IMG/VR virus record: IMGVR_UViG_3300027736_000002
Span: 1-54,919 of that record
Direction: 5' to 3' (one strand)
DNA from: a virus
DNA length: 54,919 bases
Positions within the stretch are counted from its first letter, which is position 1. Every line of letters starts with the position of its first letter. The notes beneath the pieces are model-generated. The model had not been told where the DNA came from, did not search any database, and was given only the letters and a program-made list of their open reading frames with translations. Of this stretch, positions 16,174 through 47,200 are shown in pieces. The position numbers and the translations under genes were made by a program.

Positions 16174-19100
16174 ATGGGCTATGAACTTGATCGATTGATG
16201 CAGCAGTTTGGTGTTAGTACACCAACTTTGTCCTATTCCGGCATGCCAATGCCAATGAAGCCAGATGATTTATCAACTACTGCTAGCTCAACAGATAAAG
16301 CAAACTATGATGCTTTGCTGGCCAAGTACAACGCGGATATGCCTTTGTACAACTCGAATCAAGCCATGTACAAGACTTATTCGGACGAATACAAGAATCG
16401 TTTGGCTAATACGTCTTTGTACGATGCACCGCAGTATCAAAGAGGAGCCGTGAGCAGCCCAGGCACTGGTAGCGCAATAGACCAATACTCACAGATGTAC
16501 TACGACGTGCTGGGGCGAGCGCCTGACGCCTCTGGCCTTGCGTATTGGAAAGGTAAATTTGGGGATATGATTTCTCCAGAAGAGTACGCTGAGTTTAGGC
16601 AGTCTGCGGCAGGGGAAATAGGTAGCCGACCCGTAAATAATTTGTCTACCACAGGTTTACCAGTTCTACCAGTTCTAACGGGTTTAACGGGTTTAACGGG
16701 TTTAACAGGCACAACAATCACCCCAGCCGCAGCATTGGCTCTAATGTATAGGAGCAGCACTACTGGCGCTTCAACAGCAGATTTTGACAAGTACGGCGGT
16801 TATGATAAAGTCAAAGCCGCTGCTACAGCTGCTGGGTTTAGTGCAACGCCTGAGTGGCAGCGAAGTTATGAGCAAAGTCTTAGAAATACCGGTACGGGTA
16901 CAGGTACTACAGGCTTAACAGGTACAGGTACAACGGTAGGTACAGGTACTACAGCGGGTACTACAACAGGCTTAACGGGCACAACAGGCTTAACGGGCAC
17001 AACAGGCACAACAGGTACAACAGGTACAACAGGCACGACAGGTACGACAGGTACGACAGGTACGACAGGTGCAACAGGTACGACTGGAGTTACAGGCACG
17101 ACAGGCACTACAGCTGCAACAGGTACAACTGGTGTAACGGGCACGACAGGTACAACAGGCACTACAGCTGCAACAGGCACAACAATCACCCCAGCCGCAG
17201 CATTGGCTCTAATGTACAAGTCTAGCATGAGCGGAGCACCAACAGCTGAATTTGATAAACTTGGCGGTTATGCCGCAGTTAAAGCCGCTGCTACAGCCGC
17301 TGGGTTTGACGCAACTCCTGAGTGGCAGCAGAGTTATAGGAAAAGTGTTGGTATGGCCAAAGGCGGCTACATAGACCACTACGCTGATGGCGGCGCAGTT
17401 CGCCACTATGAATATGGTGGGCCTGTTGCTGGAAGTATGGCCGAAGCCCAAGAATTGATCAAAGCCTTGGAGAGTGGAAAATTAACGGGGTACGAGCGCG
17501 AAGAGGCTTTGAGTAAAATTGCAGAAATTTATAGAAAGATTGATCAGGAGCCTTCTCAACTGGCTACTATGTCTAGGTACAGTGCGCCGCAGTTCCAAAG
17601 AAATCAAAGGGCTGTCCTGAATGAGCCTATCTACAACATGCCTACTGCGTTGCGCGTCCTTCAGACTGAGGCAAAGACTAATCCGTATGTTTTGCCATAC
17701 GATGGCGGTAATGGTAGCCCCGCTGGTGGAGAGCGTAGTTCAAACCCTGCCTGGGATGCTATGACATCTGAAGAAAAAGCTGCGTTTTATAGTGCCAATC
17801 CAATGTTTAGTGCAATTACACGAGCTGGTCAAAACATATTGGGGATTACAAGTCTTGGAACTCTGCAAAATTTATTAGTGCCCGATTTTGTGCGAGAACA
17901 ACAAGCTATTGCAAAAGGTACGGAGGCTTATTCAGGCTTTAGAAATTTTGGCAAAGAAAGCACCATTCCAAGTGGCGGTATGATTAGTCCTGGTTTATTT
18001 GATCCATATGCTGGGGATTCTGCTAAAGATACACGCGGTGTAGATTTTAGCGGTGCTGACAGTTCTGGTACGGGGTTTGCAGGCGATGTGTTTGCTTCCG
18101 GCGGCTACGTAGACAGCTACGCCCAAGGTGGTGCGGTTCGCCACTATCAAGCTGGCGGGGATGTTGTGTCAAGTATGGCTGAAGCGGAAAGATTAATTAA
18201 AGCATTGGAAGGTGGGAAATTAACAGAAAATGAGCGTGAAGACGCTATGAGCAGGGTTGCGGAAATTTATAGGAGGCTTGATGAGGAGCCTGCTCAAGCG
18301 GCCCAAATACCATCCGGCATGGATTTAATTGAGCCGATACCGGAGTCAGTACCAGTTATGGTCCAAGAGCCTGAGCAACGCACAATGTCGCAGATCCAGC
18401 AAGGTCTCACCGATACCTCACCGTTAACAGCGTTAAAAGAAGCAGTTGCCAAACCATACCCGGTTGCAGAAGCCGCGCCATTGGTCAGGCCAGTAGACCC
18501 CAGGCTCTTTGGCGAAAGCGATGAAGTTGCTACAGGCCCAGGCTACAGCCCTATGGATCCTAGGCTCTACGGTGAGAGCGATGAGGTTGCAACGGGTCGG
18601 GGTTACAGCCCTATGGACCCTAGACTTTTCGGCGAGACTAATGAGGTTGCTACAGGCCCAGGTTATTCAATGCCTGTGGCAAAACCAAAATTATTAGACT
18701 TAGCAGCAAAATACGCAAAAACCGGGTTTACCCCTACCTTTGCCGCAGGTAGCATTGACCCTGGCCCAGATCGGATGGCTTTGATATCGCAGGCCGCAAT
18801 TGCAAACAAGATTGCTAACCCTATCGTTAACATCCAACCTGAGTATGCTGACGACTCGGCAAGTCGGTTGTCTATGGATAAGCCTCAAGACACCACAATC
18901 CCAATGAGCCCAACTATGGCCATGCTGCAGAAGATGCTGTTGGCCAACCAATCCCAAACTTCACCCTATGCAGATGAGTTGCGTGTTGCTAGGGCTGCGG
19001 CCACAGCACAAACAAAAGCCTTCAACGACATGTTGGAGAAAGCAATCAAAGGCCAAGACGACAACAAGCCGTCAAACGCTGAGATGTACTTCCGTCTTGC

Positions 19101-26378: not shown

Positions 26379-26392
26379 AGGTTTTCCTTATA

Positions 26393-26460
26393 ACATTGAG
26401 ACGGCGAGACTGCCGTGAGTGCATTGTACAACACTTTTTTGAGTGCCATACAATTATTTT
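26393..26460 (-). promoter_or_regulatory. Promoter/leader module copy 1 (accessory operon)
   Basis: On the minus strand TTGTAT (26453-26448) is followed after 19 bases by TACAAT (26428-26423). The leader hairpin ACGGC...GCCGT (26401-26416) and the shared CTCAATGT follow. The spacer holds an inverted repeat around CACTCAAAAAAGTG. The -35 box abuts the stop codon of the DNA polymerase gene. The module recurs at 34767, 37945 and 38428. Confidence 0.75.
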
Positions 26461-28235
26461 GTGACCCCAAGGTCATTAAGCATGGCGTGAGCTTTTTTGA
26501 TGTACCAGTCATGGTCAATGTCATCAGGCAAAGAATCCGGCAGAATCATGAGCGGCTTGGCCCCATCGGTTATAGGGACCTTGTTGCCATTCTTTTTGTA
26601 GTGTATGGCCCCTTGCTCATCTTTGGCATAGTACCAACGGACTGCTTTACCTAGATACTCATTGTTCTTGATAGCCCCTCCGGTAACAGCTCTGACCGAG
26701 ATGAACTTACGAATCTCTGTACACTCATGGATTGTGGTCTCTATCGGAATGTCAAGCTGTAAGTAGTCCACAACGGCTTGCGTACAGATCTGAGTTGTCG
26801 GTGTTTTGGACAGGTTTTCATCGGCATAAACACCTTTGACTTTATACCCGCCATTGCGCTTAAGTGCAATGTAGTTGTTGATGTCACGCGAGTAGACCGC
26901 AGAATAAGAGGTCTCTTCAGTGCTAAAGCCAGTTGTTCTTTCCCACCTGGCAACAATGGTCTCCATGGCCGCTTGGTTGCGCTTTTGGCAATAGATGATG
27001 ATGCCATCAGTATTAGCACTCACAACACTAATGCTTTGTTCTTCAAGAGCCTCAATAAGCATTAGCAAGCTGAGTTGCCCAGTCACGGTTGTTTGAATAA
27101 GTAGGTTAGGTCCATAGAGGGCTGACCACCGTGACCCAAATTTGCCAAAGCTCCCGTTGATCGTAACTTTTAAAGCCTCGTTGATGACCTTATTGCCCTC
27201 TCTTTTTGCCTTGATTCTTTTCTCCACAAGGGATCTGTAGACGGTCAAGAAGTCAGGCCCGATATGGTCAGGATAAAGCTTCTGGTTCAGGATGACGCTA
27301 GGATAGTAGCTAGTCACGTCGCGGTCAACAATGATGTGGTTGGCGTCAGCTATGTAGTGAACTTTTTTCTCGCAAGAATGAATCCCGCCAATGCCTAGTT
27401 GGTATGTGCTAGACCCGACCTTGATCTTGAGTTTGCCGACCTCCAATGGTTCAGCAACGTCACCTTTTTCATTGAGTGTGAATGGCCGCGTCTTAAAAAT
27501 GTCTAAGGCATTGCCTAACCCTGGATGCTTAAACGCAACAAACAACGGAGGAACATAGTTGAATGAAAAGTCTTTAGGCAGACTAGGTCGAGAAACCTTC
27601 TCACCCTTGATTGCCTCGATCTGTTTTTTGATGACCGACTCAGCTATTTGAGCATCTGACTTTGACCGTAACTCCAAGCCATACTCTTTGCCCATCTGTT
27701 CACGTAGCTCAATCTGTTCACTGAGCCGGCCGTATAGGTCAATCGTTGTGTCTAAGTCGTTGATGCAGTAGCTACTCAGCAAGTCTCTTTCGTTTCGCTT
27801 GATCGTTGCGTTTGGTTCTATTGGCAAGTCTTGCATGCGTTTACTGTGCAAGCGACCACCATAGATCTTTAAACTTGCCTTCCCAGGTGCAACTTCAATC
27901 AAGTCAATGTGATCGATGTACTGGCATCTTGGCAATGTGTACTTTGATTCTGCATCCCAAGCCCTAAGATCATTGACAATGATGTCATCTGACAGAGCCT
28001 TCAGCTTTTGTGAATCAAAGCCGGCAATGGATCCTTTAAGCAAAAGCAGGTCATAGCGGTTGCCATTGAACGTGATGATTGTGTACTTGGACAAAAGGCT
28101 TTTAAGTGGCTCAACGTCAAAGTCTTCCCAGTCTGAGCGTTCAAAGGTTGCAATCTTGCCATTAGCAACGGACTTGATGGCAATCAAAAAGTAGTTGACA
28201 TAGCATTCAATGTCAAGTACAGCTTTATTCCGCAT
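26454..28235 (-). CDS. Family B DNA polymerase with 3'-5' exonuclease, 593 aa
   Basis: The exonuclease motifs are visible: LDIE at residues 7-10, FNGNRYD near 53 and INDLDTT near 160. The polymerase palm follows, with motif A DRDVTSYYPS near 303, motif B KVTINGSFGKFG near 356 and motif C ANTDGIII near 404. The start at 28235 was preferred because GGAG lies 6 bases upstream; 28250 is an alternative. The length is short for family B, as in several phage replicases, and motif C reads NTDG rather than DTDS. It overlaps the dCMP deaminase gene and ends the modification operon. It is probably the replicative polymerase. Confidence 0.85.
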   Translation of the reverse strand: MRNKAVLDIECYVNYFLIAIKSVANGKIATFERSDWEDFDVEPLKSLLSKYTIITFNGNRYDLLLLKGSIAGFDSQKLKALSDDIIVNDLRAWDAESKYTLPRCQYIDHIDLIEVAPGKASLKIYGGRLHSKRMQDLPIEPNATIKRNERDLLSSYCINDLDTTIDLYGRLSEQIELREQMGKEYGLELRSKSDAQIAESVIKKQIEAIKGEKVSRPSLPKDFSFNYVPPLFVAFKHPGLGNALDIFKTRPFTLNEKGDVAEPLEVGKLKIKVGSSTYQLGIGGIHSCEKKVHYIADANHIIVDRDVTSYYPSVILNQKLYPDHIGPDFLTVYRSLVEKRIKAKREGNKVINEALKVTINGSFGKFGSRWSALYGPNLLIQTTVTGQLSLLMLIEALEEQSISVVSANTDGIIIYCQKRNQAAMETIVARWERTTGFSTEETSYSAVYSRDINNYIALKRNGGYKVKGVYADENLSKTPTTQICTQAVVDYLQLDIPIETTIHECTEIRKFISVRAVTGGAIKNNEYLGKAVRWYYAKDEQGAIHYKKNGNKVPITDGAKPLMILPDSLPDDIDHDWYIKKAHAMLNDLGVTK

Positions 28236-28653
28236 ACTGACTCCATGCACGACCTGCTAAAACCCACAATTCTTTGCCACTGGATGGGTAGTCTTTATCG
28301 GCAACGATGCGCTTTATGCTTGTGCACAATGCTAGTTTGGTGCAGCTTATGCACGGCGCTGTTGTGCAGTACAAAGTGTCGGCTTCATCGACTTGACGCA
28401 GTCTAGCTATTGCGTTTTGTTCAGCATGGGCTGACATGCAAAGATCTAAGCCTGAACCACTAGGCAGTCCGGCTCCTGCACAAGGCACATCAATGCAATG
28501 TTGCGATCCTGGGAAAGACCCGTTGTAGCCGGAAGACAAGATGTATCCGTTGCCAGTTATCACGGCACCGACTTGCCTTCTGGAACAGGTTGCTCTTTTG
28601 GCAAATGCCCTAGCAACTTGCATGTAAGTCTGATCTAGCGTTGGTCTTGTCAT
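28225..28653 (-). CDS. dCMP deaminase (zinc-dependent), 142 aa
   Basis: The zinc-binding catalytic motifs of the cytidine/deoxycytidylate deaminase family are clear: HAEQNAI with H76 and E78, and PCISC with C101 and C104. The N-terminal RRQVGAVITGNGYILSSGYNG is typical of dCMP deaminases (ComEB type). The enzyme converts dCMP to dUMP, the substrate of thymidylate synthase or dUMP hydroxymethylase. It sits between the putative modification protein (4-base overlap) and the DNA polymerase, so it likely feeds the modified-base pathway. Confidence 0.9.
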   Translation of the reverse strand: MTRPTLDQTYMQVARAFAKRATCSRRQVGAVITGNGYILSSGYNGSFPGSQHCIDVPCAGAGLPSGSGLDLCMSAHAEQNAIARLRQVDEADTLYCTTAPCISCTKLALCTSIKRIVADKDYPSSGKELWVLAGRAWSQYAE

Positions 28654-29768
28654 GATGGTTGCCGACCTTCTCTATGCTTGATGTGATTTATGTTGAATAT
28701 TTTTGAACGGTCTACGCTGTCATAGCCTCTAGGCTGGATGTATTGCTCGCAGTACCGAATCAAGTCACAACCGGGAGCAGCATCTTCAACGTCCATCGGT
28801 CTAGAGTTGAACAAGTCACAAAACATTCTTGTGCCGGTATCATAAAAGCTTTGTTTGCCCATTTTGCCTATAGGCTTAAAGACCAGCTCAAGGGCTGCTG
28901 TTGCATTTGCGCCATGATAGCAGTTTGAATTCTCATCAACGAGTTCTGGAAAGTACTCAGCAATGTCCATGACCCAGGCGGTTAGAACAAACTTGAACCT
29001 TCTCCATCCATGCAGTGTCTGCCAGTCTAAGCACCAGTCAACAGCGGATTGGATTTTTATCGGTTCTGATTGGTCAACCAACCAATTAAAAAAGTCTCGG
29101 GCAAGCTTAGGGGCTATGTCAACTAGGTACTCACGGCCTCCTTGACTATAGGCTGCCGAAGGCTTGTTAAACGAAGGTATTTGGTTGCCCATTGAACTAA
29201 ACATCGGGCCTTCAAAATCTTTGATCAACCGCCTAATTGAGTCCTCACCGTCTGCGTTCTTGCAGAGGTAAGGGACTGGCGAGTTGTACCAGCCATGCGG
29301 TGGCAGCTTAGCGTCACCGATCATGGCAAAGCTTGCACCTGAACCACAAATCCTGTGCACAAGAAAAATGTAGAACCATTCTGCATCGTTGAACTTGTCA
29401 GCGTAGCCTTCACATGCATAGCCGTGTTTGACATTCCATTTGTGTTTTGGATTGTCTTTGCCTAAAAACATTTCTTGTGGCACGTTTGAAAAGCCAGCAG
29501 CCCATCGGCTGACTGTGTCATAGATGTGAATGTTGTCTTGTAAAGGGCAGCCACTTTTAGTAGACTCAGGCAACATGCCAACGTTACGGTCTTGCAGCAA
29601 CTTAGCTCTATGGTGATACGCAACCGCTTCTAAGAAGTAGATCGACGGCTCTAGGTTGTAGTCTGAACAAAGATCCCATTCTTTGTTCAGTGCATCACGA
29701 TACGGATGCCTATCAATTTCATGCAACTCCAATGAGTGCAGTAGTTCAGGGCTATGGTTTAGCATCAT
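28650..29768 (-). CDS. Helical protein, possible amino-acid:DNA transferase relative, 372 aa
   Basis: An all-helical soluble protein with conserved-looking aromatic and Cys/His segments: HGYACEGYADKF, EWFYIFLVHRICGSGASF, GPMFSSMGNQIPSF, and a C-terminal CDLIRYCEQYIQ. The overall look and its place beside a TS-like gene, a PLP-like gene and a dCMP deaminase suggest the alpha-glutamyl/putrescinyl-thymine pyrophosphorylase (amino-acid:DNA transferase) group, proposed to decorate hydroxymethylated bases in phage DNA. I cannot confirm the family by eye. It overlaps both neighbours by 4 bases. A structural comparison would decide this. Confidence 0.45.
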   Translation of the reverse strand: MMLNHSPELLHSLELHEIDRHPYRDALNKEWDLCSDYNLEPSIYFLEAVAYHHRAKLLQDRNVGMLPESTKSGCPLQDNIHIYDTVSRWAAGFSNVPQEMFLGKDNPKHKWNVKHGYACEGYADKFNDAEWFYIFLVHRICGSGASFAMIGDAKLPPHGWYNSPVPYLCKNADGEDSIRRLIKDFEGPMFSSMGNQIPSFNKPSAAYSQGGREYLVDIAPKLARDFFNWLVDQSEPIKIQSAVDWCLDWQTLHGWRRFKFVLTAWVMDIAEYFPELVDENSNCYHGANATAALELVFKPIGKMGKQSFYDTGTRMFCDLFNSRPMDVEDAAPGCDLIRYCEQYIQPRGYDSVDRSKIFNINHIKHREGRQPS

Positions 29769-30691
29769 GGCCCACGCTCCAGGTCAGACATGTCACCCCA
29801 TTCCCGCTGGCTTTTTAAGGGTATATTTTGGACTTGTTTATACTGAGCCACTACTTTGTCATCGGTGCCAACGTTTATGAAGATTGAGTCATCTATGCCA
29901 AAATTTTCAAAGTCTTCCCAGCACTTGGCATCATAGTTTGCCGTTGACGGGAAAGGTGGCCGTTTGTTTAGTGGTACGTCTTTCAAAAACGGTTGAGATG
30001 ATGACCATAGGATTGCATTGCCAATCTCACCATCATGCATATTACGAGCAACGATCACGCCACGGCAAGCTGCTTTAGGCCAAGCTATTTGCAATGCACG
30101 AATGGCTGTTCCAGTAGACACCGACATCCAAATCTCACTAGGATCTTTACCTAGTTGTTCAGTGACAAGTCCTGCAAGATTGATGATGCCGGCTGTGACC
30201 AATGGTGTTTTGCCAAGTCCAAAAGGCAAGTACTTTGCCCCATGCTTTTCAGCCCACTTCTTAGCATAGCTGTTTAAGGTTGGCATTGCTGCAATCTTGA
30301 TAAAACGCAAGTCAGACCCATAAGACAACAGTGCTTTTTGATGCATTGAAGGTTCGCCTGATGCTGGACAAAAGAACACGCAATGTTTGCCATAGAGTTT
30401 GGCAAGGGTTGCAATTGCATCCATAGCCATACCTACGCGAGGAGCACAATAGACTAAAACGTCTTCTTTGCACTCCGCTATCAACTGCTCAGCGCCGTAG
30501 CCTTTCAAGCTGCTAGCACTAGCATCGCCTCTGAACACCCACTTTTTACCATGGGGCCGTACTACTGGGGCTGACAGCTTTGACTTAAAGCCATTGCGCA
30601 TTGCAATGTAGTAGGACCTTGCATCATGTCTGCCCCAGCCTGCCGGAATGTCCATGTTTGACTTGCTAGTTGTGCACGTGAAGATACTCAT
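29765..30691 (-). CDS. PLP-dependent enzyme-like protein (fold type II look), 308 aa
   Basis: A candidate PLP lysine lies in SLKGYGAEQL (K63). Rossmann-like segments (VLVYCAPRVGMAMDAIATLAKLYGK) and the glycine loop VSTGTAIRAL (residues 191-200), which could hold the cofactor phosphate, follow the order seen in cysteine/threonine synthase-like enzymes. PLP enzymes occur in known phage thymidine hypermodification clusters, where they tailor an amino acid attached to the base. The start at 30691 has a GGGG site upstream and overlaps the SGNH-like gene by 4 bases. The name rests on short motifs only. Confidence 0.5.
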   Translation of the reverse strand: MSIFTCTTSKSNMDIPAGWGRHDARSYYIAMRNGFKSKLSAPVVRPHGKKWVFRGDASASSLKGYGAEQLIAECKEDVLVYCAPRVGMAMDAIATLAKLYGKHCVFFCPASGEPSMHQKALLSYGSDLRFIKIAAMPTLNSYAKKWAEKHGAKYLPFGLGKTPLVTAGIINLAGLVTEQLGKDPSEIWMSVSTGTAIRALQIAWPKAACRGVIVARNMHDGEIGNAILWSSSQPFLKDVPLNKRPPFPSTANYDAKCWEDFENFGIDDSIFINVGTDDKVVAQYKQVQNIPLKSQREWGDMSDLERGP

Positions 30692-31644
30692 AGTTGACCC
30701 CAATCAAAACGACGGTAAAAAGGAGGTGCAATGTGCACCGATGAGTTGAGCTCCATGAAAATGTTTGCATACTCTTCAGGGTCTACGGAGTACCAGCTGC
30801 TTGGCGGACTGATCAAGCATTGTTGGCTCATTTTGTCCATAAACAATTCAGTCCAATACCGCCTTTGATCTACTGTACCAGTGAATGGGGTTCCTTTATA
30901 AAAACCGGTTTGAGGGATCTTGCGCTTTTCCCATTCGATCGGTACAGGGGCGGCAATTTCAACTTGAATGTCATACTCACTGTTTAAAAAGTTGGCCACA
31001 TCGGCATAGTTGCTGCATAAGTCAATGACGGCTTGTTTAGGGGCGCTCTGTCGACCGATATGATGTCGGATGTCTATTGATCCACAGACTAAAGTTACGC
31101 GCCTTGGTTTGTGAACCAAGCGGCCTATTTGCTCAACAAAATAGCCTTTTTGTAATGCCCCATGCAACGTTAGTCCGTTTGTCCGGATTACACCTGAACC
31201 GCTAGCTGCAAAGGCCGTTGAGTGGCTGTCACCGATTGCGACTACGTCGTTTTTAAGATCTTGTTGGGTCAGTGTTGTCGAGGCTTGAAGGCGCGCATCT
31301 AGATTGGCCAAAAGGGCAGACGTCAGCCTAGTTGAGCATGTGGCCTGGCCTAAGCGTTTAGACAATTGGTGTGCATAGTTTGGCATAGGCCAATCCAAGC
31401 TGACTAGTTGTCCTTTGTAGTTTGCCAATTCTTCAAGCTTGTCAACTAAGCCTTCACTGACCCCTCCGAACAAATTGAGCACTCCGCCAAAATTGACGCC
31501 ATGCTCCACGTATAGGATTGGGCAAGTTAGCGGGTCAGTTGGCCCAGCAACAGGCACGCCAAGACATTCTGCCCAATGCATGGCCCAGCCACGCACATGG
31601 CTTTTTGGACGGACAGGTATGTTTTGAAATGGGTTGTAAATCAT
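30688..31644 (-). CDS. SGNH/GDSL-like protein in the modification operon, 318 aa
   Basis: The N-terminal 130 residues are of unknown type. From residue about 134 the order IGDSHS (138-140 GDS), CGSIDIRHH (187-195) and a final VHIAPP (H304) follows blocks I, III and V of SGNH hydrolases. The usual Asp three residues before the last His is Ser here, so the catalytic triad may be altered. Hydrolases of this fold usually remove acyl or acetyl groups. Its presence between the TS-like and PLP-like genes with 4-base overlaps suggests a step in base modification. Confidence 0.5.
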   Translation of the reverse strand: MIYNPFQNIPVRPKSHVRGWAMHWAECLGVPVAGPTDPLTCPILYVEHGVNFGGVLNLFGGVSEGLVDKLEELANYKGQLVSLDWPMPNYAHQLSKRLGQATCSTRLTSALLANLDARLQASTTLTQQDLKNDVVAIGDSHSTAFAASGSGVIRTNGLTLHGALQKGYFVEQIGRLVHKPRRVTLVCGSIDIRHHIGRQSAPKQAVIDLCSNYADVANFLNSEYDIQVEIAAPVPIEWEKRKIPQTGFYKGTPFTGTVDQRRYWTELFMDKMSQQCLISPPSSWYSVDPEEYANIFMELNSSVHIAPPFYRRFDWGQL

Positions 31645-32378
31645 TTTACAAGCCCGATGTGCCGTGGATAGATGTGCAAAGATCCTGCATTCCAGTACAT
31701 GTTGCCTTTGACTAAGTCAGGATAGGTTTGTTGCAGCCTGATCAAAGCAAAGTCGTGGACAGTATTTTGCCAAAAGTAGTCACCTTTATACCCATAGACT
31801 GCATCATTAGAACGCATGTTGACGATGTGGTTCAGCTGGCCGTCACGGATAAGTAGCTGAGTGCTGTACGTGCACATGAAGTCACGCATGCCGTCGATGA
31901 CCGAGTCTTCATGCATCGAGGGTCGAATGTAAATGATCACGGCTTGCCGGCTCTCTTTGTTTAAGACAAGGGAGTCAATTGCCTTATGGAATTGATAGCC
32001 GTTCTCAGCGCTAAAGACACACCATCCATAGTTTGAGTTGATCCGACCCTTCTTGCTTGCAACTTGTTGCCAGACCGCAGGCACAGGCGGAGCAATGTCA
32101 TTAGTGTTCAACGACTGGCTCATGTACCAACGCAGCTCACGAGCATTCCATTCGGCATTCACTTCACCAAAAATGGAAGGCTCATCGGCTATGAATGATG
32201 CATTGACAATCTCCAACATTCCAGATTCGTTTGGCTTCATAGCCTTGAACTGGTCTCGGATGCCTTGGACTGCTGTAAAGTAAGGTTTAACTGGTTTGAG
32301 CCTCGTTATCTGATCAAACAGTTTCTTTCCACGGTTGTAGAATTCTTTGTCTTTTCCTGTGCTGTTATCCTTACTCAT
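31641..32378 (-). CDS. Thymidylate synthase-family pyrimidine hydroxymethylase candidate, 245 aa
   Basis: Aligning by eye and without gaps from the catalytic Cys to E. coli ThyA: C169 matches Cys146, R189-S190 match Arg166-Ser167, D192 matches Asp169, and H235/Y237 match the HxY substrate motif. At the position of Asn177, which selects dUMP, this protein has D200. Asp at that site is the hallmark of T4-type dCMP hydroxymethylase. The canonical CH pair is CT. The enzyme therefore probably makes 5-hydroxymethyl-dCMP (or dUMP) with methylene-tetrahydrofolate. It overlaps the MazG-fusion stop by 1 base. Family confidence is high; substrate is inferred. Confidence 0.75.
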   Translation of the reverse strand: MSKDNSTGKDKEFYNRGKKLFDQITRLKPVKPYFTAVQGIRDQFKAMKPNESGMLEIVNASFIADEPSIFGEVNAEWNARELRWYMSQSLNTNDIAPPVPAVWQQVASKKGRINSNYGWCVFSAENGYQFHKAIDSLVLNKESRQAVIIYIRPSMHEDSVIDGMRDFMCTYSTQLLIRDGQLNHIVNMRSNDAVYGYKGDYFWQNTVHDFALIRLQQTYPDLVKGNMYWNAGSLHIYPRHIGLVK

Positions 32379-33127
32379 TACTTGCTCCCTACAAAGCGGT
32401 CATCTTTATCTTTGTTGTGGGCTGTATGCTCCATCAGAATAAAGAGTTGGGTTCCAGCATGGGCAAGGTGGGGCAGCCCTGATTCTGGATCAGTGTCTTC
32501 ACCTTGCCAGAAAGCAAAAAGATGCCGTATGATGGAGCCATAGGTACGTGACCAAGCAACAGTCTCGCCTTGACGGTACGAGTTGGCAAAGTACTTCTTG
32601 GCACCAAAGCCAAACACATTGGCAACTTGCATCATTGGGTCTATTGGTAGCAGATCTACTCGCACCTTTGTTGCGTCAAACTTAGGTGCAAAGCCAGGTT
32701 GGATTGTGCCATCTGAGCTAGGTGCAATTGGGGATAGTGCAGGAACTCGGTCAATGATTTGTTCAAGTTCTGCTTCAGGGCCAATCCAACCTTTAGGTTT
32801 GACTAGGTCACGCTTGAAGCCACCACGCTTATCACCATTTTGGCCAACTTCTTTGGCCATGTTTGCCTTCATGACCTTCTCAAAGCCTTCAAGCAAAGGC
32901 AGCCCTTGTCTGTCAAGAGTGCCAACAGCAAACACGATCAGATCGAGAAGGGCGTCGTACTCATCGACCAATGTAGTTGCGGCGTTGTACTCATCAAGTT
33001 CCTCTTGCAAAGCTTTGACTCGAAAGGCTTTTTCATGAGGATCAAGATGCCAAGGCACGCCAATGCTTGATGTCAAACCAAATTTTTTGTGCATGGCCTT
33101 GACAAGGCCCATAATCCTGCTTTCCAT
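32378..33127 (-). CDS. MazG-like plus DUF5664 (dATP/dGTP diphosphohydrolase-type) fusion, 249 aa
   Basis: Residues about 7-95 are an all-alpha NTP pyrophosphohydrolase of the MazG type, with the metal-binding series QEELDE (E42, E43, E46) and DEYDALLD (E56 to D62). Residues about 150-249 (KVRVDLLPIDPMMQVANVFG, then AKKYFANSYRQGE and HLFAFWQGEDTDPESGLPHL) match the dATP/dGTP diphosphohydrolase N-terminal family (DUF5664). Both parts would hydrolyse dNTPs. In phages with modified DNA such enzymes deplete the unmodified nucleotide. The start has GAAGGAG 7 bases upstream. It lies one base from the TS-like gene. Confidence 0.75.
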   Translation of the reverse strand: MESRIMGLVKAMHKKFGLTSSIGVPWHLDPHEKAFRVKALQEELDEYNAATTLVDEYDALLDLIVFAVGTLDRQGLPLLEGFEKVMKANMAKEVGQNGDKRGGFKRDLVKPKGWIGPEAELEQIIDRVPALSPIAPSSDGTIQPGFAPKFDATKVRVDLLPIDPMMQVANVFGFGAKKYFANSYRQGETVAWSRTYGSIIRHLFAFWQGEDTDPESGLPHLAHAGTQLFILMEHTAHNKDKDDRFVGSK

Positions 33128-33199: not shown

Positions 33200-33724
33200 T
33201 TAGCCGAGCAAGTCGGCATCTTCTTTGGCAAAGTTGGCAAAGTCATCAGAAGCTTCAGTGCGACCACTAAAGGCCTCACCGTCTTTGACTTTCATGATGT
33301 TGTCCAAAGCAATCGACACGCCTTTGCCACCAGTAGGATGCTCCCAAGCATAAGCTCGGATTGACGCCCTGTAGTAAGCACCGCTATAGATCTCATTGGC
33401 ATCCATGATGGGTTTCAGAGAGGCATCAACAATGCCTGGCTTGTTGTTTGACGTGGCTTGCACGCTGTAGCAGCCCGCAAACTCAGGCCTTTCTTCTTCA
33501 TCACCATCTTTGACAGGCGACTTCATCTTTGGAGGGATTTTGCCCCATTTTGCTTTGGCTGTCTCATCAACCATTTTGTTGAGATCAGTCCAGAACGAAC
33601 TCTTTTTAGGCAGTGGGATGGTGATTTGGTAACGAGGCTTTGCACCTTCAACGCCTTTAATGGCATGCGGTTCAAGTACGTGCACAAAAGATCCACGGAA
33701 CTCAGGGGTAACAAGCTTTGACAT
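33200..33724 (-). CDS. DUF2815-type single-stranded DNA-binding protein, 174 aa
   Basis: The protein begins MSKLVTPEFRGSFVHVLEPH and has the DUF2815 pattern: RYQITIPLPKKSSFW, a central GCYSVQATSNNKPGIVD, YSGAYYRASIRAYAW and a final GVSIALDNIMKVKDG. DUF2815 proteins include the Enc34-type phage SSBs with an OB fold. It ends in an acidic tail (EDADLLG), as SSBs often do. It lies between the DUF932 gene and the nucleotide genes, so it belongs to the replication block. Confidence 0.8.
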   Translation of the reverse strand: MSKLVTPEFRGSFVHVLEPHAIKGVEGAKPRYQITIPLPKKSSFWTDLNKMVDETAKAKWGKIPPKMKSPVKDGDEEERPEFAGCYSVQATSNNKPGIVDASLKPIMDANEIYSGAYYRASIRAYAWEHPTGGKGVSIALDNIMKVKDGEAFSGRTEASDDFANFAKEDADLLG

Positions 33725-34753: not shown

Positions 34754-34766
34754 TTTAGACCTTTTA

Positions 34767-34835
34767 ACATTGAGACGGCGACATTGCCGTGATTGCATTG
34801 TACAACACTTTTAGGCCTGTACACAACTATTTTGA
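34767..34835 (-). promoter_or_regulatory. Promoter/leader module copy 2 (replication and modification operon)
   Basis: On the minus strand TTGTGT (34826-34821) is followed after 18 bases by TACAAT (34802-34797), then the ACGGC...GCCGT leader hairpin and CTCAATGT. One arm of the spacer palindrome present in copies 3 and 4 is changed here (ACAGGCC instead of GCAACAC), so this copy may escape a repressor that binds the others. The -35 abuts the stop of the DUF2800 gene. Confidence 0.75.
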
Positions 34836-35936
34836 GCTTTTTGCAAAATCTTTTTTTGCGGACTGAGTCTTGTCCACGGATGACCGCTTGTCTTTCTCAG
34901 GAGCAATGGTTGGTTGGCCAACGTCTACCTTGATCAAGGCGCTCATGTCTAGGCTTTCAGCTTTAAGAGCAATCTCCATTTGAGCCACGCTAAGCAAGAC
35001 TGACTTTGTATAGATCTGGTCATAGCCTTGTTTTTTCAACCATAACTCGGTTTTTGGCACGTCTTGCCATGACCTAGTCTTACGGCCTTCAACAACTTTC
35101 CAGCCAGGGATCAAGCCTCCGGTCAGTAAGATGTCTTTTGCTTTGGCTTCTACTGCTTCGACAAACGCGCTGAGCACCGACAACTTAGGCAACCATTCCT
35201 CTATAAGGTCCATTCCAACTGGCTTAGTCTTGAAGTCAATGGCTGCAGCCTCATTGGCTAAGCGGTTCATCTCTGGGCATTTGGCTTTTGCACGACACCA
35301 TTTGCAGGCTTTCTCGCTAGCCACAAACTTGTTAGGTTCGTTTTGAATGGCTGCGTAAGAACGCTTTAGTTCTTCAGCAAATGCTAAGAGTTCCTTTAGT
35401 TCAATGGTCCAGCTGTCAATACTGTTCATCGGTGGTTGAACGATAGTCATCATGATCGTGTCTACGTCGTACACAAGGCCGTATTTAAGGTAAGCACCCA
35501 ATGCATAGCAGAGCAACTGCGTGTTGCCTTCAGCCTCTACGCGCACACCGCTGCCGGTTTTAAGATCAATGACACGCATCAATGAACCATCAATGACGAT
35601 GGCGTCTGCGGTACCCCAGCAATCATTAATGACTTCTGCAAGTGTGACCTTTTCTTCGTAAAACTTTTGGCCGTTGAGGGCTTGGATGTAGTTGACATAG
35701 ACTTGAACAAGCTCAGCCATTTCATGCGTGATGATGTGGCCATTGATCGTCTTGCCAACAAACATGGTTGGTTCAAGGCCTTTAGTCAGACAAAGGTCAG
35801 ACACTGTGTGCATTGCAGTGCCTTTCTCTGCATAGATGCTTGAGTCGCCACCTTTGATGTCAGGTTCCAGATGGACGCTGCCTGGGCAAGTCATCCATCT
35901 AGAGCTAGCACTCGGTGAGAGCTTAGCGTGCTTCAT
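34827..35936 (-). CDS. DUF2800 PD-(D/E)XK nuclease (RecB/Cas4-like), 369 aa
   Basis: The ATG at 35936 was chosen because MKHAKLSPSASSRWMTCPGS is the conserved opening; an upstream in-frame start at 36044 would lie deep in the helicase gene. The nuclease core is visible as GTADAIVID and VIDLKTGSG with a later QLLCYALGAY, matching the G-D-(D/E)xK-QxxxY order of Cas4/RecB-type enzymes. A Cys cluster (CPGS near the N-terminus and KACKWCRAKAKC) could hold an iron-sulphur cluster. It overlaps the helicase gene by 14 bases; together they may process DNA ends. Confidence 0.8.
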   Translation of the reverse strand: MKHAKLSPSASSRWMTCPGSVHLEPDIKGGDSSIYAEKGTAMHTVSDLCLTKGLEPTMFVGKTINGHIITHEMAELVQVYVNYIQALNGQKFYEEKVTLAEVINDCWGTADAIVIDGSLMRVIDLKTGSGVRVEAEGNTQLLCYALGAYLKYGLVYDVDTIMMTIVQPPMNSIDSWTIELKELLAFAEELKRSYAAIQNEPNKFVASEKACKWCRAKAKCPEMNRLANEAAAIDFKTKPVGMDLIEEWLPKLSVLSAFVEAVEAKAKDILLTGGLIPGWKVVEGRKTRSWQDVPKTELWLKKQGYDQIYTKSVLLSVAQMEIALKAESLDMSALIKVDVGQPTIAPEKDKRSSVDKTQSAKKDFAKSSK

Positions 35937-37932: not shown

Positions 37933-37944
37933 GATAGGCTTTCG

Positions 37945-38017
37945 ACATTGAGACGGCGAGACTGCCGTGAGTGCATTGTACAACACTTTTTGAGTGTTGC
38001 ACAACTATTTTGCAACT
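37945..38017 (-). promoter_or_regulatory. Promoter/leader module copy 3
   Basis: On the minus strand TTGTGC (38004-37999) and TACAAT (37980-37975) are 18 bases apart, with the near-perfect inverted repeat TTGTGCAACACT / AGTGTTGTACAA between and over them. The ACGGC...GCCGT hairpin (37954-37969) and CTCAATGT follow. It is almost identical to copy 4 over about 70 bases. Confidence 0.8.
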
Positions 38018-38020
38018 ATT

Positions 38021-38413
38021 TTACTGCTTGGCCCAGTAGCCATAGACCATTTTGTGGGTGCAGTCCCAGGTGTCGTTTGCCACACTGTCAATCACTGCTA
38101 CAAGATGATGGGCTTGCTTGGCAATCACACTGCCTTTTGGCATATCACTGCAGCGAGCCTTACGGCCTATAAACTGAGGGGCCTTGTGCCATGCCCACCC
38201 ATAACGCTTGAGCACTACTGTGTAAATGTCTTTCATGATGCCATTGCGTGCTGACCTTGAACGACCGTTGTCACAGTTTGCTTGTGATAGTTCCTTGTAC
38301 ACGGCTTTGTAGTCAAGCTGCAAAGCTATTGCCATTGCCCGAGCTCCGCAGTCACCTGCTGTGCCCTTGAAGCCTGCAGCTTGACGGCCGCCGTCATTGA
38401 ATTTATATTCCAT
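38021..38413 (-). CDS. Papain-like cysteine peptidase-fold protein, 130 aa
   Basis: The pattern GDCGARAMAIALQ near residue 20 (candidate nucleophile Cys) and a later HLVAVIDSVANDTWDC (candidate His and Asp/Asn) matches the order of a small papain-like or C39-like protein family found in phages. It is alone between two promoter modules, so it has its own promoter (module 4) and may be highly expressed early. It could cleave host proteins or process phage proteins. This is an inference from motif order. Confidence 0.6.
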   Translation of the reverse strand: MEYKFNDGGRQAAGFKGTAGDCGARAMAIALQLDYKAVYKELSQANCDNGRSRSARNGIMKDIYTVVLKRYGWAWHKAPQFIGRKARCSDMPKGSVIAKQAHHLVAVIDSVANDTWDCTHKMVYGYWAKQ

Positions 38414-38427
38414 GATGATCCTTTACA

Positions 38428-38503
38428 ACATTGAGACGGCGAGGTTGCCGTGATTGCATTGTACAACACTTTTTGAGTGTTGCACAACTATTTTGCAACT
38501 ATT
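38428..38503 (-). promoter_or_regulatory. Promoter/leader module copy 4
   Basis: On the minus strand TTGTGC (38487-38482) and TACAAT (38463-38458) are 18 bases apart over the same inverted repeat as in copy 3. The ACGGC...GCCGT leader hairpin and CTCAATGT follow, then the start of the papain-like gene. It lies right behind the stop of the HTH gene. Confidence 0.8.
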
Positions 38504-38756
38504 TGCGTTTATACATAGGGGTCCAGTCCTTGATGTCTGGTCTGAGCTGCTCTTTTGTGAATGGTATGGCCTTCATCGAGCCAAATTTTCTGGCCGCAAC
38601 ACGGCCGATCTGTCCTCGTGTGAACCAGTAGGAAACGGTGTTCCGGCTCATCTTTGCTTGCCGAGCCATCTCAGCCTTTGTACCCATGTGGACTAGGAGG
38701 AGGTCTAGGGCCTCTTGACAATCGGCTTTAAAAGGTTTGGGTTTTTTTTCAATCAT
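38499..38756 (-). CDS. Cro/CI-like helix-turn-helix regulator, 85 aa
   Basis: Residues about 25-48 (GTKAEMARQAKMSRNTVSYW) form a helix-turn-helix of the Cro/YdaS type, and the C-terminal part is basic. No Shine-Dalgarno precedes the ATG at 38756. A TACAAT box lies 5 bases upstream of it, so the message would be nearly leaderless. A perfect palindrome covers the start region, suggesting self-repression. It is the first minus-arm gene and is divergent from the primase arm, so it probably switches early genes. Confidence 0.8.
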   Translation of the reverse strand: MIEKKPKPFKADCQEALDLLLVHMGTKAEMARQAKMSRNTVSYWFTRGQIGRVAARKFGSMKAIPFTKEQLRPDIKDWTPMYKRK

Positions 38757-42657: not shown

Positions 42658-44231
42658 ACGCACCACTCAGCCCGGTTGCAATGCTTGACATGATCAAGCA
42701 TGAGCGAGACCGTCGCCGAGCTGAGGGTTGCTTGTATGACTTTGTCAAGCAAAGCTGGCATGTCGTAGAGCCTGGCATACCATTTATCCAGAGCTGGCAC
42801 ATCCAAGAGATCTGCGAACACCTTGAGGCCATCTCATGCGGTGACATTCGGCGGCTGCTCATCAACATACCGCCAAGGCACTCCAAGTCAACCATTGTGT
42901 CGGTCATGTGGCCGATGTGGGAATGGCTGACAACGCCTGAGCAGAAGTTCTTGTGTGCCAGCTACGCAGGCAACCTGAGCATTCGTGACAACTTGAAGGC
43001 ACGGCGCTTAGTGCAGTCGCCTTGGTATCAAGAACGTTGGGGCGGTTTGTTTGAACTGTCGGGCGACCAGAATGCCAAGCAACGGTTCGAGAACAGCAAG
43101 ACCGGCTACCGCATAGCCACGTCACCTGGCGGCACGGCTACAGGCGAAGGCGGCTCTCGATTGGTGCTTGACGATCCACACGGTGCACAAGAAGCCCAGT
43201 CAGACGCCATGCGTGAGAGTACGTTGGACTGGTTTGACATGGTCTGGTCAACGCGGCTGAACAACCCCAAGACCGACGCAATGGTAGTTGTGATGCAGCG
43301 GCTGCATGAGCGCGACATCAGCGGACACATACTCGATGACATCAAAGGCTGGGAGCACATTTGTATCCCTGCCGAGTGGGACGGCAAGGTGCGCAAGACA
43401 GTGCTCGGTCCATACGACCCACGCACCAAGAAAGGTGAACTCATCTGCCCTGAGCGCTTCGGGCCGATAGAGATCACGGCCTTAAAGCAGCTACTCGGTT
43501 CGTACGGCACAAGCGGTCAACTGCAGCAAGATCCTGTGCCGAGTACCGGCGGCTTGCTCAAGACTGCGTTCTTCCAGCAATGGCCACACAATGAACGGCT
43601 GCCGCAGTACGAGTACATACTGCAGAGCTACGACTGTGCATTCACCGAGAAGACTACAGGCGACCCTACGGCCTGCACGGTATGGGGAATGTTCACGCAC
43701 AAAGGCGAGCGGAACTGCATGCTGCTTGATGCTTGGGACGAACACCTCAGCTATCCTGACTTAAGAACCAAAGCCGTTAAGGATTGGACGACCGAGTATG
43801 GTGGCGACAACAATAATGGGGCAGGCATGCCTACTCGGGCTCGACGGCCTGATCGCATCTTGGTAGAAGCCAAGGCCAGTGGTCAATCGCTGCTTCAAGA
43901 CTTGCGTTTGGCCAGAGTGCCTGCAGTAGGGTATAATCCGGGAAACGCCGACAAAGTAAGCCGTGCACATCAAGCAGCACCCACCTTGGAGCTTGGACTA
44001 TTGTGGATACCCGAGTCAAAGCGCAACCCTGGACAGCCTGTCAGCTGGGCAGCGGCGTTCATCAAACAGCTTACCAAGTTCCCACTGGCCGAGCATGACG
44101 ACTATGTGGATACGTTTACGCAAGCCATCATCTACCTCAAGGATGATGGTTGGTTTGAGCTGCCGCAAGCCAAGGACGTTGACGAACCACGGCCTAAGAG
44201 CAAAGACAAGGTGAACCCATATGCCGCTTGA
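42654..44231 (+). CDS. Terminase large subunit, 525 aa
   Basis: The ATPase domain has the deviant Walker A IPPRHSKST near residue 72 and Walker B RLVLDDPH near 169. The nuclease domain has its first Asp in SYDCAFTEKTTGDPTACT near 323 and later Asp residues in HDDYVDTFTQAI near 481. This order is that of TerL motors, which translocate and cut DNA into the prohead. It overlaps the previous and next genes by 4 and 11 bases. Length fits the family. Confidence 0.9.
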   Translation: MNAPLSPVAMLDMIKHERDRRRAEGCLYDFVKQSWHVVEPGIPFIQSWHIQEICEHLEAISCGDIRRLLINIPPRHSKSTIVSVMWPMWEWLTTPEQKFLCASYAGNLSIRDNLKARRLVQSPWYQERWGGLFELSGDQNAKQRFENSKTGYRIATSPGGTATGEGGSRLVLDDPHGAQEAQSDAMRESTLDWFDMVWSTRLNNPKTDAMVVVMQRLHERDISGHILDDIKGWEHICIPAEWDGKVRKTVLGPYDPRTKKGELICPERFGPIEITALKQLLGSYGTSGQLQQDPVPSTGGLLKTAFFQQWPHNERLPQYEYILQSYDCAFTEKTTGDPTACTVWGMFTHKGERNCMLLDAWDEHLSYPDLRTKAVKDWTTEYGGDNNNGAGMPTRARRPDRILVEAKASGQSLLQDLRLARVPAVGYNPGNADKVSRAHQAAPTLELGLLWIPESKRNPGQPVSWAAAFIKQLTKFPLAEHDDYVDTFTQAIIYLKDDGWFELPQAKDVDEPRPKSKDKVNPYAA

Positions 44232-47200
44232 CCCTCTTGACGAGTTCTTGCCTCCACGCTATCGGTCTGCTGGTCGTAGGCCTGAGGCCAACAACGACAG
44301 AACCGCTTCTGCTAATGCGCCATTGTCAGCGTTGAGGGGTTGGGCAGCAGGCACAGCAGGGTTAGCAGGAGATATAGAAGGCTTAGCCCGTGCAGGTATC
44401 TCCCAACTGCCGCCACAACTGCTGACAGCCTTTCCTGCACTTCGTGCATTTGGCATAGGCAGTCGCGCAGATCCCACGCCGCAAATGCCAACAACCGAGT
44501 TCTACAACGAATACCTACCCGGTGCTCAGTTGAATCAAACTCCAACAGGCAAAGCATTCACTACTTCAGGCAACTTGTTTGGCGGCACAGGAACTACGAC
44601 ACTTGCTAAGTATGGTATTAAGAGTGCAAAGGCAACGGGCCAAGCACTAGGGCCAACCGCTGTGCGGATAGGCGAGGACTATTTGCAGCGGCAAGGTTTG
44701 ATGCCCGGCGTTATTAAGCCCAAAGGTGGTAACCAATTGGCCGGTAGTTTTGAGAATTCATTGAAAGGGTTAAAAACCGACGTGCCTGCGTTTGACTTTT
44801 CTGAAGGCAGAAATATGAAACAAACGGACGCCAACTTTATCGAACAAAACTTTCCGGGAATCACTCAGGAATATTCGGACGCTTTTCGTGCTTCTGGGAT
44901 GCACTCAATGGACTACGCAAAAAAGCAAATTCCATGGTTGAAACAAAATCATCCGGAAATCATAGATTCGTTGTTGACAGGCAAAACAAAAGATCAGGCA
45001 CTCAATACCTGGATTGACAAACAACTGACCAATTATATTAAGAATGACATGGCCACCCCCGGAGACCCAATCCGGGCCTTAGCTGAGCGGGGTATAACCT
45101 ATGCTGAAATGGCGCCGCTTAATACTTATTTGAGTGACGTACTAGGTCGTCGTCGAGAATCTGTTGGCTTTCCTGCTAAGGGTTTTGGGCAATCAGAAGC
45201 AGCTCAACGTTGGGAAGCAGCTGCTGACGAGGCTATTCATAATGCCCCTGCTAGGGAACGGCTCAATACTACTATTTCAGCATCAGAAAAAAACCTATTG
45301 GAAAACCCATGGCTAGCTAAAGTTCCACCAGAGACAATGACGTATGGTGCTTACGCTAACTCGGGACAACAGCTAGGTTTTGACCACATCGTTGACGAAC
45401 TTCGTAATGCTACAGACTTAGCCAGTAGTCTGCCACCTAATTTACGTTTAAAGTCTAGTAGTTTACCACAATTAAGTGTACCTCAAGCTGTTGAGCGTGT
45501 CAGCCAGATCAATGCTTGGCGTGCTGCAGAAGCTATTAAAGCTGAAAAAGCAGGCATGATGGGCAACCTTAATGCTAATTCACGTCTTGAAGATCCAACA
45601 ACACAACTATCGTTTGTTGACAAGCCTGGAATGAAATGGGTTGACATCCCCGAGACAACCGACAAGATTGGGTTGAACCTTTGCACTACCATTGGTAAGC
45701 AAGGTGGTTGGTGTACTCAAGGCGAAGGGTTAGCTAAGAGTTATGGCTCTGGGCCAAATCGGCTTACTACTTTGATAGATGCCGATGGCCGCCCTCATGC
45801 ACAAGCAAAGATTACATCTATCCCCTATTCCGGGGACATCATGGATGACGTTGACGACATAATGCAAACAATGTCTGCAGCAGAACAGCGCAAATTCAAT
45901 AGGTATATAGGCTCTAACGAATTTGCACCGCATGGTGACGTTGACACGGAAGAAGTATTGGCATGGTTGCAAAGCAATATGCCTAAATCTTACAAGCGCT
46001 ACCTTGCATCAATCAGCGGCCCATCCAATATCACAGAGATTAAACCTGTTAGCAATGACTTCTCCAGTGCCCGTGCACTGGAGTACAAGAGTCGCGACCC
46101 ACAGTATCAGAACAAGATCACAGACTCAACGTTAAAGTTCCTTAACTCTAGTGAATGGGGTACGGTAACCGATTTGGACCACTTCAACATTGTTGATTTA
46201 AAGGATACCCATAGCGTTCAGAGGGCTTTAAGAGAAGTTTTAGATAGGGACTTGCCAAAAGATCGGATTGACAAGTTTAACTACGCGGTCAATTTTAATC
46301 CTGAAGCAAATCGGTTTATGTCAACCAGACAATTTTCTGATTTTCTTGAGCCGCCAGAAGGCTTTGCCAAGGGCGGCGCAGTCCACTTTGACGAAGGCGG
46401 TGCAGCCTTTGGCGTATTCCCGCAGATGAAGCCACGCCGGGCACTGCAAGACCGTGAGGCTGCGGCCAATGCACCACTATCTGCACTCCGAGGCTACGCA
46501 GCGGGTACTGCCGGATTGCCAGGAGACATTGAGGGGTTGGCCCGTGCAGGCATCTCTCAACTGCCGCCGCAAGTGTTGGCAGCTTTCCCTGCACTACGTG
46601 CATTTGGCATAGGCAGCCGTGCAGACCCTACTCCACAGCTACCAACCACTGAGTTCTATAACGAGTATCTGCCGGGTGCTCAGTTGAATCAAACTCCAAC
46701 AGGTAAAGCATTTACCGCTGCAGGCAACTTGCTTGGCGGTGCAGGCTCCACGACACTTGCTCGGTATGGCATCAAGAGTGCAAAGGCAACGGCCAAAGCA
46801 ATTGCTGAAGCTGCCCCCGGACCTGCTTCTGGCAGCCGTGCAGCCCAACTTGGTGTCATCAAAATGCCTGGCGGCAACTGGTTGTCCGGCTCGGTGGAAG
46901 AATCTGTGAGTCCAATGAAACGGCGTGGAACTCCTTCAATTGCATTTAGCCAAGAAGAAGCTGATGACTTTATTGCAAGAGGTTTTGTTAGAGATAAGTC
47001 AGGAGGAGATGGTTATTATTTACCGCCTGACCCGGTCAACAACTTCATTGACAAGAAGATTGCACCGTACATCCGCGATGAAATGGCCACACCTAATGAT
47101 CCGTTGCGAGCAATGGCTGAGAAGTATGCTGTGGACAAACCAGTTAGGCTGGCTGAGGTGCAAGGTCGGATTGATGCCTTTGCTGCCAAGATGGAACAAA

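Follow-up and report, generated by a model that had tools for sequence, protein, structure and literature searches.

Do six overlapping genes that lie immediately ahead of a phage DNA polymerase gene build a modified DNA base and, if so, on which base and by what chemistry? The question is raised by positions 28225-33127 of the IMG/VR virus record IMGVR_UViG_3300027736_000002, whose entire 54,919 bases were analyzed and are referred to here as the window. Read on the minus strand, the genes encode a MazG fusion protein, an enzyme of the thymidylate synthase (TS) fold, an SGNH-fold protein, a pyridoxal phosphate (PLP)-dependent enzyme of the PALP type, an all-helical protein designated HEL, and a dCMP deaminase. 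These proteins probably constitute a cassette for cytosine hypermodification, in which hydroxymethylation would be followed by attachment of a group through SGNH and HEL and by tailoring of that group by the PLP enzyme. A first-pass annotation had proposed an operon for base hydroxymethylation and hypermodification with an SGNH member. The dCMP-hydroxymethylase type of the TS, the homology of the PALP enzyme, and the lack of a kinase match support this proposal and refine its target to cytosine.

The TS (Pfam PF00303) is the main guide to the target base. Its closest solved structure is the dCMP hydroxymethylase of phage T4 (1b49, E 1e-58), with thymidylate synthases matching at E 4e-8 or worse. 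The dCMP-type Asp noted in the first-pass annotation aligns with D179 of T4 gp42. Asp occupies this position in 96 of 97 aligned TS sequences (94/94 cassette enzymes, T4, and the Aeromonas phage 44RR2.8t, or 44RR), the remaining one being the Asn of the Pseudomonas phage M6 enzyme, and the catalytic Cys is found in 97/97. An Asn/Asp switch at the equivalent position 177 of Escherichia coli TS sets the use of dUMP or dCMP. Among phage contigs that MetaGPA selected enzymatically for cytosine modification, TS enzymes mostly have Asp177 and co-occur with domains of the PRA-PH, dCMP deaminase, and MafB19-like deaminase families (PMC8670742). The same three Pfam families are also found in the window operon. 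Because of its homology to dCMP hydroxymethylase and its invariant Asp, the cassette TS would very likely make 5-hydroxymethyl-dCMP (5-hmdCMP), and cytosine, not thymine, is the predicted target base. A thymidine hypermodification like that of M6 or the Salmonella phage ViI, with the TS making 5-hydroxymethyl-dUMP, would explain why the PALP family is common to M6 and, more distantly, ViI. It is nonetheless a very improbable reading, as Asp rather than Asn is present in every cassette TS, the best match is a dCMP hydroxymethylase, and the 5-hydroxymethyldeoxyuridine (5-hmdU) enzymes considered below have no match in the window. Thymidine was thus rejected as the target base on the TS Asp.

Two further cassette enzymes would act on nucleotides. 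The MazG fusion matches PF01503 (3e-6), PF18909 dGTP_diPhyd_N (7e-28), and phrog_801, as anticipated by its earlier description as a MazG-DUF5664 fusion (DUF5664 being PF18909). It is a putative deoxynucleoside triphosphate pyrophosphatase, and its depleting dCTP would be a guess. The dCMP deaminase, also named at first reading, was recovered by both Pfam and PHROGs. Phages often carry MazG, TS, and dCMP deaminase genes for nucleotide metabolism, and the locus could in principle serve only to recycle pyrimidine nucleotides and amino acids, leaving the DNA unmodified. Such a role is highly unlikely given the tight coupling of these genes to SGNH, HEL, and PALP, the Asp-type TS, and the ties of the PALP family to DNA-modification proteins elsewhere, including a ParB-methyltransferase-like fusion in Erythrobacter phages.

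The strength of this coupling was assessed across IMG/VR, which was searched with HEL and SGNH profiles, each of which has more than 540 confirmed relatives among the matches listed. The loci counted below were dereplicated from the 80 best matches per search and thus represent the closer relatives. SGNH was encoded in all 21 HEL-fetched loci, together with PALP in 20, TS in 17, dCMP deaminase in 14, and MazG in 11. Conversely, HEL was present in 26/26 SGNH-fetched loci, most of which also encoded TS (23/26), dCMP deaminase (23/26), PALP (22/26), and MazG (17/26); a P-loop kinase-like open reading frame (ORF) was seen in 2/26. A third dereplicated set of 19 loci, some of them fetched by PALP or SGNH, displayed six gene orders. 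Two queries of 50,697 phage records with HEL found no relatives. Joint recurrence of the genes across dozens of divergent loci, in differing orders, exceeds chance and confirms TS, SGNH, PLP, and HEL as a travelling module of very diverse uncultivated phages. The cassette is therefore widespread and not particular to the window phage. SGNH and HEL are its constant pair, and PALP is more dispensable, as expected for a tailoring enzyme.

Structure prediction and homology searches, which the first-pass annotation had recommended for the proteins at 28650, 29765, and 30688, identified a helical, a PALP, and an SGNH protein, respectively. The SGNH assignment is well founded, with an AlphaFold pLDDT of 90 and Foldseek matches to SGNH esterases (3mil and others; probability 1.00, E 3e-5); scans against Pfam, NCBIfam, and PADLOC gave nothing for this protein. 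It contains the motifs GDSH, GxID, and SVH plus a family-specific PxE.E.RxxPxTGxYKGxPF, and GDSH, R241, G247, and H304 are invariant in 59/59 relatives. At block III the window protein has GSID and 43/59 relatives have GNID, so that the canonical block III Asn is absent from the window sequence. The residue three positions before His304 is not Asp, and the canonical block V Asp is consequently missing. Because of these two departures, the activity of the enzyme may be atypical.

An SGNH domain also occurs in cultured phages. In the Aeromonas phages 44RR2.8t and AS4, it lies at the N terminus of an ~800-residue protein (ORF233c in 44RR2.8t; 32% identity). The C-terminal part matches PF18723 weakly (17 bits, below the cut-off), and one segment of it, GMGPYYCYHF...AGPGA, can be aligned to M6 gp55. 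44RR also encodes the gp42 dCMP hydroxymethylase and the gp56 dCTPase. ORF233c differs from the cassette in that no PALP match accompanies it and its C-terminal region is not detectably homologous to HEL.

HEL was modeled as an all-alpha protein (pLDDT 79, pTM 0.82). Searched against BFVD, the model retrieved close homologues, followed by an ADDT-named protein (12% identity, E 1.9e-4, probability 1.00), an aGPT-pyrophosphorylase clade 1 protein (E 0.04, probability 0.96), and the 5-hmdU DNA kinase of phage SP10 (E 0.09, probability 0.90). No meaningful Pfam (29 members), PHROG, NCBIfam, or PADLOC match was obtained for HEL. The earlier description of a helical protein resembling amino-acid:DNA transferases holds for its all-alpha fold, is weakly matched at the level of predicted folds, and fails as a sequence relationship to PF18724. 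Because PF18724 was matched in 0/29 HEL members, the name of the BFVD relative, 'Amino acid:DNA transferase domain-containing', was not taken as proof of function. Within the window's own phage group, two loci (L025, 8936-10069; L026, 2584-3717) have in place of HEL (window 28650-29768) a version with 32% identity, while their flanking cassette genes and polymerase are ~90% identical, which suggests that HEL can be swapped independently of its neighbors. On one reading, HEL would determine which group gets attached. As a separate observation, the cassette locus L267 contains two HEL-matching ORFs, which could represent a pair of distinct transferases or one gene that has been split.

The PLP enzyme, originally described as PLP-enzyme-like, proved to be a fold-type-II PALP protein homologous to the M6 gp52 family (hhalign E 8e-34, probability 99.9, 233 columns). 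A hidden Markov model of the M6 type retrieves the window enzyme at 5e-11, a C-terminal PFP...YDxKxW motif is common to both proteins, and Lys67 is invariant (62/62). In M6, gp52, a decarboxylase of a DNA-bound amino acid in the published pathway, adjoins the amino-acid:DNA transferase gp51. Relatives of the PLP enzyme also occur outside such loci. In the Erythrobacter phages R6L and ZS04 they are inserted in a ParB-methyltransferase-like fusion (L015, 10771-13203; L018, 2317-4764), and in the Microcystis phage Mae-JY30 one adjoins a ParB-methyltransferase-like gene (L016, 8114-9705). By sequence, these fusions and neighbors appear to be a second DNA-modification context for the family.

The comparison with M6 and ViI also defines what the cassette lacks. 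We know of amino-acid-derived DNA hypermodification on thymidine only, where it runs via a 5-hydroxymethyl-base kinase, and to our knowledge the characterized pathways of the M6/ViI type do not use an SGNH-fold partner. M6 (5-NedU) and ViI (5-NeOmdU) share with the cassette the TS-family hydroxymethylase, helical proteins, and a fold-II PLP enzyme, and they place an amino-acid-derived group on a 5-hydroxymethyl-pyrimidine in DNA, as is proposed for the cassette. The transferases of the thymidine pathways act once a 5-hmdU kinase has phosphorylated the 5-hmdU residues in DNA (PMC6449724). The cassette differs in having the Asp-type (dCMP) TS instead of the dUMP-type Asn enzyme of M6 and in showing by sequence no 5-hmdU kinase, PF18723, or PF18724 and no radical SAM enzyme. 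Specifically, the window record yielded no match to PF18723, PF18724, thymidylate kinase (PF02223), radical SAM, or carbamoyltransferase (PF16861) families, and the only ORFs picked out by a P-loop motif scan of the record were one of tail type and a putative primase-helicase. The record is perhaps incomplete, and a kinase may be supplied by another family or by the host. The first-pass annotation had likewise seen no recognizable hydroxymethyl-base kinase, and neither the thymidylate-kinase family nor the helical domain of 5-hmdU kinases is matched in the record.

Cytosine-directed systems resemble the cassette in its first step. In T4 (glucosyl-hmC) and RB69 (arabinosyl-hmC), a dCMP hydroxymethylase acts first and decoration follows replication. 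The cassette is likewise of the dCMP hydroxymethylase type, but no glycosyltransferase was recognized in it. The 5-carbamoyloxymethylcytosine pathway uses the same combination of Asp177 TS, PRA-PH, and dCMP deaminase to decorate 5-hydroxymethylcytosine (5-hmC) (PMC8670742), whereas in the cassette the carbamoyltransferase is absent and SGNH, HEL, and PALP are present instead. A search of the papers available found no cytosine version with amino acids and no dCMP hydroxymethylase paired with a GDSL protein.

These features can be arranged into a four-step pathway. The TS would convert dCMP to 5-hmdCMP, with the dCMP deaminase and the MazG-type pyrophosphatase adjusting nucleotide pools, a step strongly indicated by homology and the invariant Asp. 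The phage polymerase would then incorporate 5-hydroxymethyl-dCTP. On DNA, the SGNH-HEL pair may activate the 5-hydroxymethyl group and attach a small moiety, for which an amino acid is the likeliest candidate, an SGNH-fold enzyme thus standing in place of the P-loop 5-hmdU kinase of the thymidine pathways. This step is suggested by the near-obligate co-occurrence of SGNH and HEL, the 44RR fusion of SGNH to a region resembling the kinase helical domain, and the predicted fold of HEL. Finally, the PLP enzyme would tailor the amino acid once it is attached; the simplest route is a decarboxylation that leaves an amine linked to the base. PLP decarboxylases require a free alpha-amine, and the search for a radical SAM isomerase gave no match. 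The predicted product is therefore of the 5-(2-aminoethoxy)methyl-cytosine type or another aminated 5-methylene-cytosine, the simplest compatible form being an amine attached via a side-chain atom, as in the ViI base. DNA modified in this way would presumably be protected from host nucleases. In its most specific form, the proposal is a widespread kinase-independent pathway in which SGNH and a helical transferase add an amino acid to 5-hmC and PLP-dependent decarboxylation yields a positively charged cytosine, and in this form it is offered tentatively. Base hypermodification is of a known kind in phages, and the activation step is possibly novel. If correct, the pathway would represent a new base chemistry, the cytosine version, together with a new activation step through an SGNH-fold enzyme, and it would supply enzymes for amine-tagging of 5-hmC.

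Several observations weigh against this pathway. The phages with the cassette are uncultivated, and PALP is missing in 4/26 SGNH loci. SGNH enzymes normally hydrolyze or transfer acyl groups, and we know of no precedent for SGNH-mediated activation of a hydroxymethyl base. No hmdCMP kinase was recognized in the window, so that host or unrecognized kinases would be needed. Against the PDB, Foldseek gave nothing significant for HEL, though ADDT structures are deposited, and comparisons of HEL with ADDT and PF18723 profiles (20 and 35 members) stayed at noise level (E ~0.04-0.23), with a colinear 160-column HEL-PF18723 alignment that is suggestive only. Because these profile comparisons are at noise level, HEL is placed near helical modification enzymes weakly and by predicted fold only.

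The nature of the attached group is also open to another reading, in which 5-hmC is made and then receives a sugar, an acyl group, or another moiety that is not an amino acid. In that case SGNH would work as an esterase or O-acyltransferase, either on the 5-hydroxymethyl or on a glycosyl group, HEL would be a helper that binds DNA or resembles a glycosylase, and PALP would make a small-molecule precursor. The SGNH fold is one usually seen in esterases and O-acetyltransferases, PatB among them, and the weak PDB matches of HEL include a DNA glycosylase. In addition, the 44RR homologue of SGNH adjoins an SSF symporter, and Aeromonas phage 25 (L220, 767-4038) has a standalone SGNH homologue beside a UDP-galactopyranose mutase and another unidentified protein. 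Phage 25 could therefore carry a galactofuranosyl decoration, and because of this neighborhood the group attached by the cassette could be a sugar, a further point against an amino acid. A sugar or acyl group is nevertheless rather unlikely, since homology links PALP to the M6 gp52 family of 5-NedU phages, the BFVD fold matches of HEL are amino-acid and pyrophosphorylase modification enzymes, and neither a glycosyltransferase nor a sugar-donor gene was recognized in the window cassette by Pfam or PHROGs.

The layout of the locus is given in Table 1. All six genes reported in the first-pass annotation are present on the minus strand between the SSB and polymerase genes, as it had stated. Their overlaps are of 1-4 bases, with the exception of the PLP gene, whose overlap would be 16 bases if it started at TTG 30703. 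Translation more likely begins at an in-frame ATG at 30691, from which the junction with the SGNH gene becomes the usual ATGA overlap. The window polymerase shares up to 49% identity with polymerases of cultured phages, those of the Queuovirinae lying at 46-47%. In the Queuovirinae phages NP1 and R7M, 7-deazaguanine genes are located just upstream of the related polymerase and a processivity factor, and the cassette occupies the corresponding place; the Queuovirinae genes are entirely different from those of the window cassette, and their target base is G.

Table 1. Genes and repeats of the cassette region (window coordinates)
Feature	Position	Strand	Evidence or remark
MazG/PRA-PH + dATP/dGTP-diphosphohydrolase N-terminal domain fusion	32378..33127	-	Pfam, PHROGs
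Putative dCMP hydroxymethylase, TS fold	31641..32378	-	Catalytic Cys + dCMP-type Asp
SGNH-fold protein	30688..31644	-	AlphaFold, Foldseek, phrog_13881
PLP-dependent fold-type-II (PALP) enzyme	29765..30703	-	M6 gp52 profile match, phrog_7093
HEL, all-helical protein, proposed DNA-base transferase	28650..29768	-	Model; BFVD matches; SGNH proximity
dCMP deaminase	28225..28653	-	PF00383 2.9e-20, phrog_174 3e-36
Family-B DNA polymerase, directly downstream of cassette	26454..28250	-	phrog_1252 1.4e-198
Enc34-type single-stranded DNA-binding protein (SSB), precedes cassette	33200..33724	-	PF10991 1e-43, 149 bits
82-nt intergenic repeat, family D1	34762..34843		Upstream end of unit DUF932-SSB-cassette-polymerase
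82-nt intergenic repeat, family D1	26388..26469		Downstream boundary of unit DUF932-SSB-cassette-polymerase

The direct-repeat family D1 has four copies in the window, the two in Table 1, which bracket the transcription unit running from the DUF932 gene to the polymerase, and those at 37940-38021 and 38423-38504. The core of the 82-nt repeat consists of GACGGCGAnnnTGCCGTGA then TGCATTGTACAACACTTTT, a pattern found in 44 related loci, and the repeat is a candidate phage promoter or regulator-binding site. An Rfam scan of the window gave no match, and a tRNA search of the window found none. Elsewhere in the window, a 1456-residue ORF (44221-48591) apparently comprises two diverged tandem copies of one long module, and the stretch NAPLSALRGWAAGTAG...GIGSRADPTPQ... 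occurs twice in its translation. At 16919-17199, a nine-base tandem array of ~25 copies of TACAACAGG units codes for a Thr-Gly-rich stretch of a 1297-residue ORF.

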